Shown here: in pieces, positions 1 through 14,232 of the stretch
Layout: each line of letters begins with the position of its first letter
Numbering within the stretch: the first letter of the stretch is position 1
Source: Actinomycetota bacterium
GTDB taxonomy: Bacteria; Actinomycetota; Acidimicrobiia; Acidimicrobiales; Ilumatobacteraceae
Reading direction: 5' to 3'
Assembly (NCBI GenBank): GCA_027730505.1
Contig: JAQCGT010000008.1
Location: 1 to 46,348, forward strand
DNA: 46,348 bases
Notes under the pieces: model-generated
The model's input: the letters and a program-made list of their open reading frames with translations, nothing else
Databases searched by the model: none
Told to the model about the DNA's origin: nothing
Position numbers and translations under genes: made by a program

Positions 1-1462
1 TGAACATCGGCGCTGCAACCACGAAGAAAGCAACAGCGGCCACCCACGTGTCTCCCAATCTGGCGTACCAGGTCAGGCCCGTTCGACGCATCACATCACC
101 TGTCAACACCCGCTGTTCGGAGATGTCGGACCGCTGCAGCACTCGACCGTCGGGGTCGATGATCGCCGAGAATCCTGTCGGGGCGACCTGAATGACCCAA
201 CGACCGGATTCCACGGCACGAAGTCGGCTGGAGGCCACCTGCTGGGTCTGGAGAATGGTCCAGGTATAACTCGCTCCGTTCGTGGGATTGACGAGCAGTT
301 CGCCTCCCGATGTGACCCCGTCTCGCGTCCGACGGCCGAAGAACACCTCCCACGAGATGACTACGGCTGCCCGCGCCACGCCGGGAACGTCGAGGACCGC
401 CGGGCCACGTCCGGCGAGGGCATCGCTCGGAATCTGGTCGACCGGGGCGCCGAGCGCCTCGAGAAGCCCACGCAGCGGCACGTATTCGCCGTAGGGGACC
501 CGAACGACCTTCACGTACCGATCCACCACCGAACCGTCGGGCATGACCGTGTACTGAGCGTTGACGAAGTTGCCAGGACCGACGTCGTAGACGTACTCGG
601 CATCCTCTGTCACCCCGACGAGGAACGGGACACCCAATCGCGATGCTTCAGCAGCGATGGCTGCCGCTTGATCGCTCTCGGCGAAGGAAACTCGATTGAC
701 GTCGATGGCGTTCTCCGGCCAAACCACGAGATCGAGTTCGGGATCGACCTCGATCTTGGCGGTTGCCGCAAGATGTGCTGCCGTGACATCGCGCGACGGC
801 ACCTCGAGTGCGCTGGTGCCCTGGCGGCCACCGCCCTGCACGGCGGCGACCCGCACAGTGCCGCCGTCGATGTCGTGGCCGGCTGGCGCGATCGTTGCGA
901 GAACGAACACAGCGGACGACCCCAGGATCGGAGCCAGAGAGCAGCCTGTCACCGCTCGATCGCGGATCGACCTGATGAGCGGGGGGATCGTGAAGCTGAC
1001 CGTCATGACGACCAGAGAGATCAGCAACACACCACCGACCCGGGCGACGTCGAGCAGCGGTCCCGACGCCTGGGCGATACCCATTGTGGCGAGGGGAACA
1101 CCGCCGAATGGCACGGCAAGGCGAGCGGCCTCGGCGAGCGTGTGGGCCCCAGCTCGAGCGAACGGCGACCATGACGATGGGGCCACGGTCGCTGCGGCAA
1201 CGGCGTGGAACATAGAGAAGACGATCACCGCTGCGACGTGCCCGGGTGGGGTGAGGAACCACATCCAAGCGGTGGACGGAGCGAGCCAACCGATTGCGAA
1301 GACGAACCCTGATACGGCTCGCCGGCTCGCCCGGGCATCGTGTCGCCAGCCGAGGAGCGCGACCCCGATGAATGACAAAGGCCAGAATCCCCACGGCGGC
1401 ATGGATGCTGCAACGCAGAGCCCGCCGACGAAGGGCAGCAGCAATGATCTGGTGGCGTTCAC
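1..1462 (-). CDS. lnt: Apolipoprotein N-acyltransferase, C-terminus runs off window start
   Basis: Reverse-strand reading from GTG at 1462 gives several hydrophobic segments and then a nitrilase-like domain with ...LDLVVWPENAIDVN... and ...RYVKVVRVPYGEYVPLRGLLEAL...; typical Lnt motifs. Not in the ORF track because it has no stop inside the window. Confidence 0.88.
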   Translation of the reverse strand, partial: MNATRSLLLPFVGGLCVAASMPPWGFWPLSFIGVALLGWRHDARASRRAVSGFVFAIGWLAPSTAWMWFLTPPGHVAAVIVFSMFHAVAAATVAPSSWSPFARAGAHTLAEAARLAVPFGGVPLATMGIAQASGPLLDVARVGGVLLISLVVMTVSFTIPPLIRSIRDRAVTGCSLAPILGSSAVFVLATIAPAGHDIDGGTVRVAAVQGGGRQGTSALEVPSRDVTAAHLAATAKIEVDPELDLVVWPENAIDVNRVSFAESDQAAAIAAEASRLGVPFLVGVTEDAEYVYDVGPGNFVNAQYTVMPDGSVVDRYVKVVRVPYGEYVPLRGLLEALGAPVDQIPSDALAGRGPAVLDVPGVARAAVVISWEVFFGRRTRDGVTSGGELLVNPTNGASYTWTILQTQQVASSRLRAVESGRWVIQVAPTGFSAIIDPDGRVLQRSDISEQRVLTGDVMRRTGLTWYARLGDTWVAAVAFFVVAAPMF

Positions 1463-2109
1463 CCGTCGAGTGTGCCGAACACCACGATCCGCTGGGCGGT
1501 CGACCCCGGCGGATGGCACGCGAAGAGCGTGACGGTGGATTCAGGTGTCTGGTCGATGATCCAGAGCGCGGTGGGCTCGACGATCTCGGTTCGATCCACG
1601 AGGTAGACGTGGCGCCCTTCGGCATCCTCGAAGATGATTTCATCGCCGGGCACCAACTGATCGAGGTAGCGAAACACCTGATGTTTGCTGACCCGATGTC
1701 CGGCGACCACCACGTTGCCGAGGTCCCCGGGCATCGCCGTTCCGGGCCAGTGGCCGGGTCCGAGGTCGAGGGTCGTCAGACGAATCCCCTCGAACATCGT
1801 CGATTCGAGATCGATTGCGGGGATGCTGATGCTGGCGAGTTCGATCACCGGTTCGGTGGATCGGGTGTCCTGTGGTGGGGGCACCGGTGTGGGGAGCGTC
1901 ACCGTGGTTGTAGTGGTCGATGTGGTGGTCGTCGACGTCGTCGTTGTCGTGGAGGTCGACGTCGTCGTCGTGGTCGGGGCGACGGTGGAGGTTGTGGCGG
2001 CGGTCGTTTCAGGGATGACGACCGAGGCGGTCGAGTCACCACACGCGGAGATTGTGAGGGCCGCGGCGATGGCGATCACGAGAGCGATTGGTGCACGTGA
2101 GGGGTTCAT
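1459..2109 (-). CDS. Sortase (class E-like) with lipoprotein signal peptide and Thr-rich linker
   Basis: N-terminus MNPSRAPIALVIAIAAALTISACG (lipobox ISAC); sortase core LGPGHWPGTAMPGDLGNVVVAGHR...TLFACHPPGSTAQRIVV with catalytic His, Cys and Arg. Confidence 0.85.
   Translation of the reverse strand: MNPSRAPIALVIAIAAALTISACGDSTASVVIPETTAATTSTVAPTTTTTSTSTTTTTSTTTTSTTTTTVTLPTPVPPPQDTRSTEPVIELASISIPAIDLESTMFEGIRLTTLDLGPGHWPGTAMPGDLGNVVVAGHRVSKHQVFRYLDQLVPGDEIIFEDAEGRHVYLVDRTEIVEPTALWIIDQTPESTVTLFACHPPGSTAQRIVVFGTLDG
1900..2007 (-). repeat. Low-complexity Thr/Ser-coding tract in the lipoprotein sortase
   Basis: Encodes ETTAATTSTVAPTTTTTSTSTTTTTSTTTTSTTTTTVT. Confidence 0.85.
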
Positions 2110-3482
2110 GGCGATACCGATTCTTCCAGATGGGACATCGTTCTCTCAGCCGCTCGGTGGCCGTCTGCGACACATGCCGGGATGCCGATCCCCCGGTATG
2201 AACTCCCGGCGAGGACCAGACCTGCGCCGGTTCCGCGCTCGATGTGCGAGATGGTCGTGTGGTGATGCGGCCGGTACTGGGTGAAGGCTCCCGGCCAGCG
2301 AGTGACGCGGCTTTCCACCGGGGCGAGGTCGGTACCGAGATGCATTGAGACTTCAGCGACGGCGGCGTCGATGAGCGCAGAGTCGTCGAGATGGAGCACA
2401 TCGAGTCCATCTCTGCCGAGCGACACCCGCAGCACGACGCTGTCGTGACCACCGAGGTGGGCCCACTTCTGTGAGGCGAATGACACGGCGGTAACCGTTC
2501 GCTGCACCGACTTCGGAACCAGGTAGCCCGATCGGCCGAGTGCATGTTCGGGCCAATCGGCGATCGGTACCGCCAACGTGACCATGGCAACGCCGCAGGT
2601 CTCGAGCGTCCGAAGCGTTTCGGCGATGTCGCCGGACATCATCTCCGCCGCAGCGGCAGCGGGGGCGGCGTTAATGACGGCGTCAAATGCCTGACCGTCC
2701 ACCCGCCAACGGCCGTTGTCGGCCGTGATCTCAGCAACGGGTGACGACGTGATGATTCGAACTCGATCGCCGTGATGCTTTGCGAGATCGCGTTCGAGAG
2801 CGTTGATCAGGTCGGCCAGTCCGCCGATTGGCGCCGCGAAGATCGGCCCGTCGGATTTTGGCGTTGTCCGCATGGCCGAGCGGCCAGAGAGGAGGGCGCT
2901 TCGTCCTCGTCCGGCGAGCGCTGCGATTTGTGGAACGGCTGCCAGAGAGAACCGGTCGGTGTCGGCGCCGTAGATACTGCCGACGAGGGCATCGACCAAA
3001 CGGTCGTGCACTTCATCGCCAAAGCGTGTCCGAACCCAATGCCCGATCGAGTCGTGGGCGGTCGGCGTTCGCGGCAGCACGAGGTCGAGACCGGCCCGAG
3101 CCAGGCCAACTGGAGAGAGCAGGCCGCTGCGAGCGATTGCCAACAGCGATGTCGGAACGCCGAGGAGGACACCGTCGGGGATGGATCGCAGGCCGTCGTA
3201 CCAGATCGCAGCCCGCGCGTCGGTTGGCGCGGTGATTTGATCACCAAGTCCCAGTGATCTCGTCAGATCGATGGCGGCCGGCATCCTCACGAGGAACGCG
3301 TCAGGGCCCTCGTCGACCGCTGCGCGGCCTGCAAACGGCGAGGTGCTGATCTTGCCGCCAAGGCGTTCTTCCCCTTCGAACACCGTGATCGAGAGATCGT
3401 GGTCAGACGACAAGTAGGCCAGGTGGCGAGATGCGGCGAGGCCGGTGATGCCGCCGCCGATCACCGCCACCGAACGGGTCAT
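2106..3482 (-). CDS. hemY: Oxygen-dependent protoporphyrinogen/coproporphyrinogen oxidase
   Basis: N-terminal FAD motif VAVIGGGITGLAASRHL, then EGEERLGGKI...DEGPDAFL, plus position between hemH and the sortase. Confidence 0.9.
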   Translation of the reverse strand: MTRSVAVIGGGITGLAASRHLAYLSSDHDLSITVFEGEERLGGKISTSPFAGRAAVDEGPDAFLVRMPAAIDLTRSLGLGDQITAPTDARAAIWYDGLRSIPDGVLLGVPTSLLAIARSGLLSPVGLARAGLDLVLPRTPTAHDSIGHWVRTRFGDEVHDRLVDALVGSIYGADTDRFSLAAVPQIAALAGRGRSALLSGRSAMRTTPKSDGPIFAAPIGGLADLINALERDLAKHHGDRVRIITSSPVAEITADNGRWRVDGQAFDAVINAAPAAAAAEMMSGDIAETLRTLETCGVAMVTLAVPIADWPEHALGRSGYLVPKSVQRTVTAVSFASQKWAHLGGHDSVVLRVSLGRDGLDVLHLDDSALIDAAVAEVSMHLGTDLAPVESRVTRWPGAFTQYRPHHHTTISHIERGTGAGLVLAGSSYRGIGIPACVADGHRAAERTMSHLEESVSP

Positions 3483-4423
3483 GTGATCGTTGCTCCGGCC
3501 TCGACAACTCGTTGGGCGAGGGCCGCCATGACGTCAGGTCGGTCGTTCACGCAGGCGGTTCGATCGAAGGCAAGACCGTGCTGCTCGGCCCGCACGCGGG
3601 CCTCGATGTCGAGGTCGTACAGCACCTCGAGGTGGTCGGCAACGAATCCGACAGCGCTCACGATGACCCCTCGATGGGCGCCGCCAGCGGCGACATCATC
3701 GATGAGTTCGCCGATGTCGGGTCCGATCCATGGTTCAGGAGTGCGTCCGGCGCTCTGCCAGGCGATCGTCCAGTCGGACCCCTCCTCCATGCCGAGACGT
3801 TCGGCGATGGCAACGGCTGTCGAACGGAGTTCGTCGGGATAGAGGTCACCGCTGTCGATGATCCGTTGTGGGAGTGAATGAGCGGTGAACGCAACCAGCG
3901 ACCCCTCGCCCATGGCTTCCCGTCGCGTCCTGAGATCATCGGCGATGAAGTCGACGAAGGCCGGTTCGACGGCCCACGAGTCGATGCCGACCACGCTGAT
4001 GCCGAGTGGCTCTGCCGCAGCTTTGGTACGGCCGATGTACTGACCGATCGAATACGACGAATGATGAGGCGCGAGCACCAGGCCGACAATCCGTGTAAAC
4101 CCAGCATCAGCGATCTCGGCCACCGTTGTCTCGATCATCGGAGCGGCGTGCTTGAGCCCGAGAAAGACTCGGTGGGTTCCGGGGGCGAGGTCGTCTAGCG
4201 CGGCCTGCAATCCAGCAGCCTGGGCCTCGGTCAGCTCAGCGAGCGGCGACAGGCCCCCGATGGCCTCATAACGTGCGACCAGTTCGGCAAGCGCCTCCGG
4301 GGTTGGTGGACGCCCGCGTCGGATATCGGTGTAGTACGGCTCGATCTCGTCTCGATGACGTGGGGTGCCATACGCCATCAACAACACAGCGGTTGAAGGG
4401 GTGCCTGCGCTCATGTCCGTCAT
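3479..4423 (-). CDS. hemH: Ferrochelatase (proto- or coproporphyrin)
   Basis: LLMAYGTPRHRDEIEPYYTDIRRGRPP; LAPHHSSYSIGQY; FTAHSLPQRI; adjacent to hemE and hemY. Confidence 0.92.
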   Translation of the reverse strand: MTDMSAGTPSTAVLLMAYGTPRHRDEIEPYYTDIRRGRPPTPEALAELVARYEAIGGLSPLAELTEAQAAGLQAALDDLAPGTHRVFLGLKHAAPMIETTVAEIADAGFTRIVGLVLAPHHSSYSIGQYIGRTKAAAEPLGISVVGIDSWAVEPAFVDFIADDLRTRREAMGEGSLVAFTAHSLPQRIIDSGDLYPDELRSTAVAIAERLGMEEGSDWTIAWQSAGRTPEPWIGPDIGELIDDVAAGGAHRGVIVSAVGFVADHLEVLYDLDIEARVRAEQHGLAFDRTACVNDRPDVMAALAQRVVEAGATIT

Positions 4424-11161: not shown

Positions 11162-11446
11162 TCATAGACCGTGTTCGACATCCTCGCGCTCGGCCGCTCG
11201 AACCGCGTAGCCCAACACGATCGATGGGGCGAGGAGCACCGAGGAAACGATGAGGCAGACGACGACGGTCGTTGCAAGCGGCGAGGAGAAGCCGACGGCG
11301 AACGCAATGATGAACACTGCGACACCGACCGAGAGGATCAGATAGCCGACGCGGTTGGCCAGCAGTGTCCAGCGGGCGATGACGGAGCGGCGGGCTCTCA
11401 CGGGATCGTCGATCGCCGAATGGTCGTGCTTCTTGCGGTCTGCCAT
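11162..11446 (-). CDS. Small membrane protein, two predicted TM segments
   Basis: MADRKKHDHSAI...LLANRVGYLILSVGVAVFIIAFAVGF...VVVCLIVSSVLLAPSIVLGYAV; GTG 11455 is an alternative start. Confidence 0.65.
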   Translation of the reverse strand: MADRKKHDHSAIDDPVRARRSVIARWTLLANRVGYLILSVGVAVFIIAFAVGFSSPLATTVVVCLIVSSVLLAPSIVLGYAVRAAEREDVEHGL

Positions 11447-12195: not shown

Positions 12196-13485
12196 TCAGA
12201 GGTTAGGCGGCAGCAATCCGTTGACGTTCTCGTAGATGAAATAGAGCACCACGATCCCGGGAATCAGCGCGACCGGTAGCGCTGGGAACCAACTGCGCCG
12301 CCGGTGACTCCACCAGCGGACAGCGAGGATCAGCACGATCATCGGGATCGTCCAGAGAATCCCTTGGGTGAGGGCGGCAGGGTCATGGAACCAACCCGCA
12401 GCGAAGGCATCGGTGGTCGCCGTCGATGTGCCGCCCGTGTCTTCGACGACGATTGGCACGCTGGTGCTGGTGGACGACGTCGTGGGCGACGCTGTAGTTG
12501 GTGTCGTCTCGGCCGCAGCCACAGTTGTTGCGGTCTCATCGGGAAGCAGGGTCGTTGTCGTTGCGATCGACGACAACGACGAAGCGAGGTAGCTGCTTCG
12601 AGCGGTGGGCGTATCCGACTGTGTCGGGTCGAGGTTGGCATGGATGATGATTCGCTGAGCGGCAGACCACTTCGGGTGGCATGACGTCAGGGTCAGTTCA
12701 GCGATCGTTGGATCGCTGGTGGCAACGACGTGGTAGTCGGACGGCTCGACGATCAGCGTCTCGCGCACGCGGTAGACGAATCGTCCCGCTGCAGTGGTGA
12801 CGATGATCTCGTCACCGGGTTCCAGCCGGTCGACATCGTGGAACGGTTGACCGTACGTGGTTCGGTGGCCGGCGATGGCCGCGTTGCCGAGTTGGCCCGG
12901 CAACGGCGTGTCAGGGAAGTGGCCCGGCCCCAGTTGTAACTCATCGACTCCGACTCCAGCGACCACGTAGTGGTCGGTGCCGATGGTCGGGATCTCAAGA
13001 CGCGCCACCGGGTCGCCGAGTGAGATGTCGAGCACGGGGGCCGGCGGCAACGTGGAGGTGGTGGTGACGTCGGTGCTCGTCGGCGCCGCCGTGTCGTCAG
13101 CGATGCTGGTCGTGGTCTGGGCTGCGGTGGTCGTGACGACCGCTGCGGTGGTCGTCTCGACAGAGAGTTGTTGCTCGAACTTGTCGGCGAGGTCGCGCTG
13201 GGCACGAGCGGTTTCGAGGCCCGTTCCCCACAACTGGTAGCCGACGAACCCGAGCATGAGCAGACCGATCACGATGAGTGCCCGGCCGAAGAGTCCGATC
13301 ACCCACCTCCAGTCTCGTGGCTCCGGCGGTCGGTCCCATTGAGCTCGACGATGTCGGCGCCAGGTGTTCCAATGTCTCCGGTAGAAACCCGCCCAGCGGC
13401 TGGTCGGGCCACGTCGATGCGCCCGACGCACCACCTCACTCAGACGGTACCCCTCGTTGGGACGGGGACTGTCGGGGCCTGACAC
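12196..13485 (-). CDS. Class E sortase with Thr-rich linkers, N-terminal TM and C-terminal TM segments
   Basis: LGPGHFPDTPLPGQLGNAAIAGHRTTYGQPFHDVDRLEPGDEI...LTLTSCHPKWSAAQRIII. ORF opens at 13566; GTG 13485 is preferred because TATCGT lies 7 nt upstream. Confidence 0.85.
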   Translation of the reverse strand: MSGPDSPRPNEGYRLSEVVRRAHRRGPTSRWAGFYRRHWNTWRRHRRAQWDRPPEPRDWRWVIGLFGRALIVIGLLMLGFVGYQLWGTGLETARAQRDLADKFEQQLSVETTTAAVVTTTAAQTTTSIADDTAAPTSTDVTTTSTLPPAPVLDISLGDPVARLEIPTIGTDHYVVAGVGVDELQLGPGHFPDTPLPGQLGNAAIAGHRTTYGQPFHDVDRLEPGDEIIVTTAAGRFVYRVRETLIVEPSDYHVVATSDPTIAELTLTSCHPKWSAAQRIIIHANLDPTQSDTPTARSSYLASSLSSIATTTTLLPDETATTVAAAETTPTTASPTTSSTSTSVPIVVEDTGGTSTATTDAFAAGWFHDPAALTQGILWTIPMIVLILAVRWWSHRRRSWFPALPVALIPGIVVLYFIYENVNGLLPPNL

Positions 13486-13551
13486 GACGCTCACGATACC
13501 GGTGGCCCTCAAGCGGCGACGGGGGTGTTCGAGCGGCGTGACGCCTAGCGT

Positions 13552-14232
13552 GTGGCAGAGATGCATCCGTCACCTGACGCCACAACCGACCCGGTCATTG
13601 ACCTTGAAGGGCTGGTCGTCGTGCTCGGTGGCTTCCCGGCACTCGCTGGCGCTGATCTTCGGGTGGAGCGCGGCGAGATTCTCTTGCTCGCTGGACCGAA
13701 TGGCGCAGGAAAGACGACGCTTCTGCGTGCCTGCGCAGGAATGACCCGACCGGTTCGAGGGTCTGGGCGCGTACTCGGGTTCGATCTCCTGCGCGAACGT
13801 GAGTCGATTCGTGCTGGCGTTGGACTTGTGGGTCATCGCAACGGCCTGTACGCGGACCTCACCGTTCAGGAGAACCTCCGGTTCTGGGGAGCGGCCAGCG
13901 GAGCGACGTCGTCGGAGATCGAAGCGGCTGCATCGGCGATGGCGGTGGACGGTCGCCTCGCCACGGTGCCGGTTGGACGACTGTCGGCTGGGCAGCGACG
14001 TCGAACGGCACTGGCGGTGCTCGTCGTGCGCCGGGCAGCGCTGTGGTTGCTCGACGAACCCCACACCGGTCTCGATGCCCAGGGCCGTGACGAACTCGAT
14101 GCGCTGCTCAGGCGCGCGGCTGTCTCGGGAGCGACCGTGGTGTTCGCAAGCCACGAGGCCGATCGGGCAGATCAGCTGGCCACTCGTTCGGTTCGTGTTG
14201 TCGCTGGTCGGGTGGAGGCCGTCGATGGCTGA
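13552..14232 (+). CDS. ccmA: Heme ABC exporter ATP-binding protein CcmA
   Basis: Walker A LLAGPNGAGKTTLLRACAGM; LSAGQRRRTALAVL; followed by ccmB and ccmC. ATG 13561 is an alternative start. Confidence 0.9.
   Translation: MAEMHPSPDATTDPVIDLEGLVVVLGGFPALAGADLRVERGEILLLAGPNGAGKTTLLRACAGMTRPVRGSGRVLGFDLLRERESIRAGVGLVGHRNGLYADLTVQENLRFWGAASGATSSEIEAAASAMAVDGRLATVPVGRLSAGQRRRTALAVLVVRRAALWLLDEPHTGLDAQGRDELDALLRRAAVSGATVVFASHEADRADQLATRSVRVVAGRVEAVDG

Follow-up and report, generated by a model that had tools for sequence, protein, structure and literature searches.

Sortases are described as enzymes tethered to the cell by a transmembrane (TM) helix. Two classes are relevant to the enzyme considered here: in class E sortases a Tyr in the β3/β4 loop has been proposed to select LAxTG, and the class D sortase of C. 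perfringens, which is without this Tyr, prefers LPQTG (PMC5148588). The acyltransferase Lnt, a homolog of which is encoded next to our sortase, has been studied through substitutions of its catalytic residues. The C387S variant of E. coli Lnt formed the acyl-enzyme and had no Lnt activity, and in M. bovis BCG a C387S homolog, BCG_2279c, failed to substitute for the true Lnt (PMC3850990); the Y388W variant of the E. coli enzyme was inactive, with the acyl-enzyme still formed (PMC5500890). In open-licence PMC text (titles, abstracts, and passages) we found no paper describing a lipoprotein sortase and none on a sortase of Acidimicrobiia.

Here we examine a sortase with a lipobox in a member of the Ilumatobacteraceae. 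The window, the whole 46,348-nucleotide stretch that was analyzed, is one entire contig (G000:C40) of a 2.47 Mb assembly of 194 contigs. The named relatives of this genome belong to Ilumatobacteraceae / Acidimicrobiia. The lipobox sortase is real, and it is a variant of a known enzyme.

Architecture and class of the sortase

The gene lies in a minus-strand run in the order hemH, hemG, sortase, lnt, in which we infer the name hemG from the Pfam match and the hem context. The features discussed below are as follows.

1..1462, minus strand: Lnt-like acyltransferase, far end cut by the contig edge, with Ser for the nucleophile Cys (VVISWEVFF); TIGR00546 212.5 bits against a cut-off of 132.9, and alignment to solved Lnt chains
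1459..1462, minus strand: GTGA overlap of sortase stop and lnt start, 4 nt, read from the sequence; present in lipobox and Cys-less orthologs
1459..2109, minus strand: lipobox sortase of 216 aa that resembles class E without reaching its cut-off; PF04203 E=7.8e-30
1462..1854, minus strand: catalytic core of the sortase, containing His, Cys, and Arg (alignment A1)
1855..2040, minus strand: Thr/Ser/Pro-rich stalk, roughly residues 24-85 (direct reading)
2041..2109, minus strand: signal peptide with lipobox ISA-C, Cys23 codon at 2041-2043 (direct reading and ortholog lipobox statistics)
2106..3482, minus strand: hemG-like protoporphyrinogen oxidase, a conserved upstream neighbor whose stop overlaps the sortase ATG (2106-2109); PF01593 E=4.2e-35
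3479..4423, minus strand: hemH, ferrochelatase, upstream in the same gene run; PF00762 E=6.8e-72
12196-13566, minus strand: second sortase, 456 aa, missed in the original prediction; passes the class E cut-off with 178.6 bits

The frame, coordinates, and sequence of the sortase agree with the original prediction, as does its claim of a complete sortase core. PF04203 matches residues 94-214 with 103.6 bits (cut-off 26.6), TIGR01076 scores 70.1 bits against a curated cut-off of 39.35, and the catalytic set comprises His (AGHR), Cys (FACHPPGS), and Arg (AQR). These three residues are invariant across alignment A1, which holds 18 orthologs, and 88 of 93 orthologs match all three patterns together. 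Ahead of the core, the N-terminus reads MNPSRAPIALVIAIAAALTISA followed directly by CGDS and then by the Thr/Ser/Pro stalk, the length of which varies among orthologs.

Among sortase classes the class E model NF033747 scores best, at 112.4 bits, which is below its cut-off of 160, and the class D cut-off is likewise not reached. The β3/β4-loop Tyr is absent, with K at its position (GHRVSKH); at this position 69 of the 93 orthologs have H or K and 4 have Tyr. Class E membership is ruled out by the score below the cut-off together with the missing Tyr. The AlphaFold core has a pLDDT of 94.4, and among PDB folds the model is closest to a class D sortase, followed narrowly by classes A, C, and E.

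Lipobox and predicted transmembrane N-termini among orthologs

The original prediction read the N-terminus as a lipoprotein signal peptide and named conservation of the Cys in orthologs beforehand as a test of this reading. The signal, MNPSRAPIALVIAIAAALTISA with CG directly after it, conforms to standard lipobox rules: a charged n-region with R5 and a 17-residue h-region precede ISA-C23, as expected of a lipoprotein signal. The genome carries genes for Lgt and LspA, which score 216 and 111 bits, respectively. We classified the N-termini of 93 distinct sortases, drawn from 61 genomes and 80 named loci, and obtained 50 with a lipobox, 36 without the Cys, and 7 that were unresolved, such that a lipobox is present in 50 of the 86 classifiable orthologs. 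The last charged residue lies a median of 15 residues from the Cys in lipobox orthologs (n=50), and the uncharged run of Cys-less orthologs has a median of 21 residues, which is TM-length (n=36); the p value for this difference (Mann-Whitney p=5e-14) is indicative only, as the sequences compared are relatives of one another and it was the Cys that defined the two groups. In all 50 lipobox orthologs the hydrophobic run leads exactly up to the Cys, which in many of them is part of a textbook LSAC, LAAC, or LAGC and in 49 is directly followed by Gly, Ser, or Ala. A PS00013-like rule is satisfied by 49 of the 50, and the stricter G+LPP rule by 36. Judged by these features, the two groups bear the marks of predicted lipoproteins and of predicted TM anchors, respectively.

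Cys23 might instead be incidental, in which case the N-terminus would be an uncleaved signal anchor that tethers the sortase in the ordinary way through the membrane. Seven of the 12 orthologs in the same genus would fit this scenario, as they are without the Cys and have a hydrophobic run of TM length. We nevertheless consider it unlikely; in the window sortase the uncharged run ahead of the Cys is just 17 residues long, and the Cys sits precisely at its end, followed by Gly, a pattern repeated in the 50 orthologs. We reject a chance residue at this position because the Cys recurs at the exact end of the run in these orthologs against a background of ~0.6% in the same N-terminal stretches (10 other cysteines among 1901 residues). 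The outcome for the original prediction is therefore mixed: the lipobox is widespread among orthologs and Lgt and LspA are encoded, but the Cys is lost in 36 orthologs, including the seven same-genus copies with a TM-length anchor. For the window sortase, the lipobox reading survives this partial loss; its lipid anchor is probably genuine and widespread in Ilumatobacteraceae, yet exchangeable.

The distribution of the two anchor types was followed on a tree built from the sortase cores with the N-terminus excluded. Anchor type changed at least seven times on this tree, a count that is approximate because the tree, drawn from 132 columns, leaves many of its forks unresolved. A supported clade of 66 rows, mostly of the hemG-sortase-lnt type, is mostly lipobox and contains several Cys-less subclades. 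The genus of the window alone holds 5 lipobox and 7 Cys-less N-termini among its 12 distinct sortase copies; a weaker lipobox, GVAC, is found in L005 and L006 of this genus. Within a close set of six rows, the Cys is present in L008 and L012 and absent from L007, L009, L011, and L013, and TGACSGG of L008 stands near the place of SVAFFND in L007; the tether therefore seems to have been exchanged in place. One could also suppose that the lipid form works somewhere other than the TM form does, such as in vesicles or once it has been shed, and that a change of anchor alters function. The clean separation of the two anchor types speaks for this, but no release site is evident in the sequence, and we regard the idea as very improbable.

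The reading that we favor, and hold to be highly probable as a whole, is that a lipid would substitute for the usual N-terminal TM helix as the tether of this sortase, and that lipid and TM tethers would be interchangeable within the family. Cys23 would then be lipidated, and the enzyme would join its substrate to the wall by transpeptidation. Because closely related members differ in having a lipid or a TM tether in the place of the other, these sortases constitute a natural experiment on the role of the tether.

To place this in a wider context, 60 sortases were sampled from Actinomycetota outside the class of the window; 52 have TM-like N-termini and 8 a lipobox. In this sample, the premise of a TM helix as the normal sortase tether holds, and because 8 of the 60 have a lipobox, a lipid-anchored sortase is uncommon but not unique. 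Lipobox sortases look undescribed in the open-licence PMC text searched, yet recurrent in genomes.

The lnt neighborhood and the Ser-type Lnt

The original prediction also noted that the sortase stop overlaps the start of lnt by 4 nt, and implied that the two are coupled and that the neighbor would triacylate the sortase. The overlap itself is read directly as GTGA, and the downstream gene scores well above the lnt model cut-off. The sortase start overlaps the hemG stop as well, which had not been mentioned.

Sortase and Lnt-like protein could form a functional unit in which the sortase requires N-acylation by the co-translated Lnt; 66 of 93 orthologs have the two side by side in this order, and in the window they overlap. 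However, Cys-less sortases retain both the adjacency and the 4-nt overlap. Among orthologs with enough flanking sequence, lnt adjoins the sortase in 42 of the 50 with a lipobox and in 21 of the 34 without the Cys, and independent pairs on the tree reveal no association between lipobox and lnt adjacency, although with only three pairs the power is low. Moreover, hemG and lnt are contiguous in L037, L039, and L042, without an intervening sortase, and the Lnt carries Ser and Trp where E. coli requires Cys387 and Tyr388. We therefore reject functional coupling as the main reading and give it little credence. In L041, L048, and L051, too, hemG lies just upstream of lnt. A separate observation is a weak, broken match to the sortase core directly upstream of lnt at L036:147-311, which may be the remnant of a sortase gene in decay. 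For the overlap with lnt, we prefer gene packing in a hemG-lnt neighborhood to a device serving the sortase; this neighborhood either houses the sortase or has lost it, and no functional reason is needed for the overlap.

The Lnt-like protein (P0002) aligns along its length with solved Lnt chains, and VVISWEVFF falls opposite the ICYEV motif. It retains the Glu (WPEN) and the Lys (YVKV..PYGEY) and has Ser in place of Cys387 and Trp in place of Tyr388, which leaves the Glu-Lys-Cys triad incomplete. That this protein is the enzyme triacylating the sortase is doubtful because the catalytic Cys is missing. Ser occupies the nucleophile position in all 64 readable sortase-adjacent copies and in 19 of 20 separately fetched Lnt members of the family and order, and is fixed across the Acidimicrobiales sampled. 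Cys is usual in the Lnt sample of the phylum, where Ser occurs again in just one other family (L214, L218, L219, and L225); these form a second, separate actinobacterial Ser-Lnt group with ISFE or LSYE. The Lnt tree has two changes between Cys and Ser at this position. A search of the genome with the Lnt model returned no other gene above the cut-off and no Cys-type Lnt, the sole further match being weak and nitrilase-like (35 bits).

We tentatively suggest, as a possibility with somewhat less than even chances, that Acidimicrobiales usually have a single Lnt-type enzyme, one with a Ser nucleophile, which would N-acylate lipoproteins by an oxyester route or modify something else, and that beside it lives a clade of lipid-tethered sortases in which the tether is freely exchanged for a TM helix. 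The fixation of the Ser-type Lnt in the sampled Acidimicrobiales lets one ask if Lnt chemistry strictly needs Cys; alternatively, these bacteria might have only diacylated lipoproteins. The Ser-type Lnt may be a better lead than the lipobox sortase.

Candidate substrates and comparison with known systems

As originally stated, the window encodes no LPxTG or LAxTG substrate; there is a single loose match, VGFSS at 11164, on a 97-aa frame. A search of the genome by family model identified LPxTG-like C-termini with a hydrophobic stretch on other contigs, namely LPETG (C42, 433-aa frame), LPTTG (C171), LPSTG (C6; weak tail), and LPAAG (C176), and these four sorting-signal candidates lead us to reject the notion that the genome has no substrate. 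The loci of these LPxTG-like surface proteins are L056, L057, L060, and L061 (LPETG, LPAAG, LPTTG, and LPSTG); the LPAAG protein looks fasciclin-like. The window sortase may process the LPxTG-like proteins, or the class E paralog at 12196-13566 may do so instead; this paralog has the Tyr (GHRTTYG), begins with a TM helix, and bears hydrophobic segments toward its C-terminus. A third sortase-like protein of 623 aa is encoded at L003:1483-3354 on the minus strand (G000:C93); it has a twin-arginine-like signal (RRRFLLGAG), a C-terminal sortase domain, and no obvious membrane anchor.

Compared with class E (NF033747; S. coelicolor SrtE1, PDB 5cuw), the best-scoring class and also actinobacterial, the window sortase has the same fold and catalytic residues, but it scores below the cut-off, is without the Tyr proposed for LAxTG selection, and has a lipobox rather than a TM helix. 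The C. perfringens class D enzyme (PDB 4d70) is the top match by profile and fold and likewise lacks the Tyr; the window sortase nevertheless falls below the class D cut-off and belongs to another phylum. The eight other actinobacterial lipobox sortases (L164, L190, L194, L195, L197, L202, L204, and L205) share the sortase domain and lipobox N-terminus, but come from genomes outside the window's class, and most have a lower PF04203 score and look class-F-like. Finally, the neighboring Lnt resembles M. bovis BCG_2279c in having Ser at the nucleophile position (PMC3850990); BCG, however, has a Cys-type Lnt as well, whereas in the window genome the Ser-type protein stands alone above the family cut-off.
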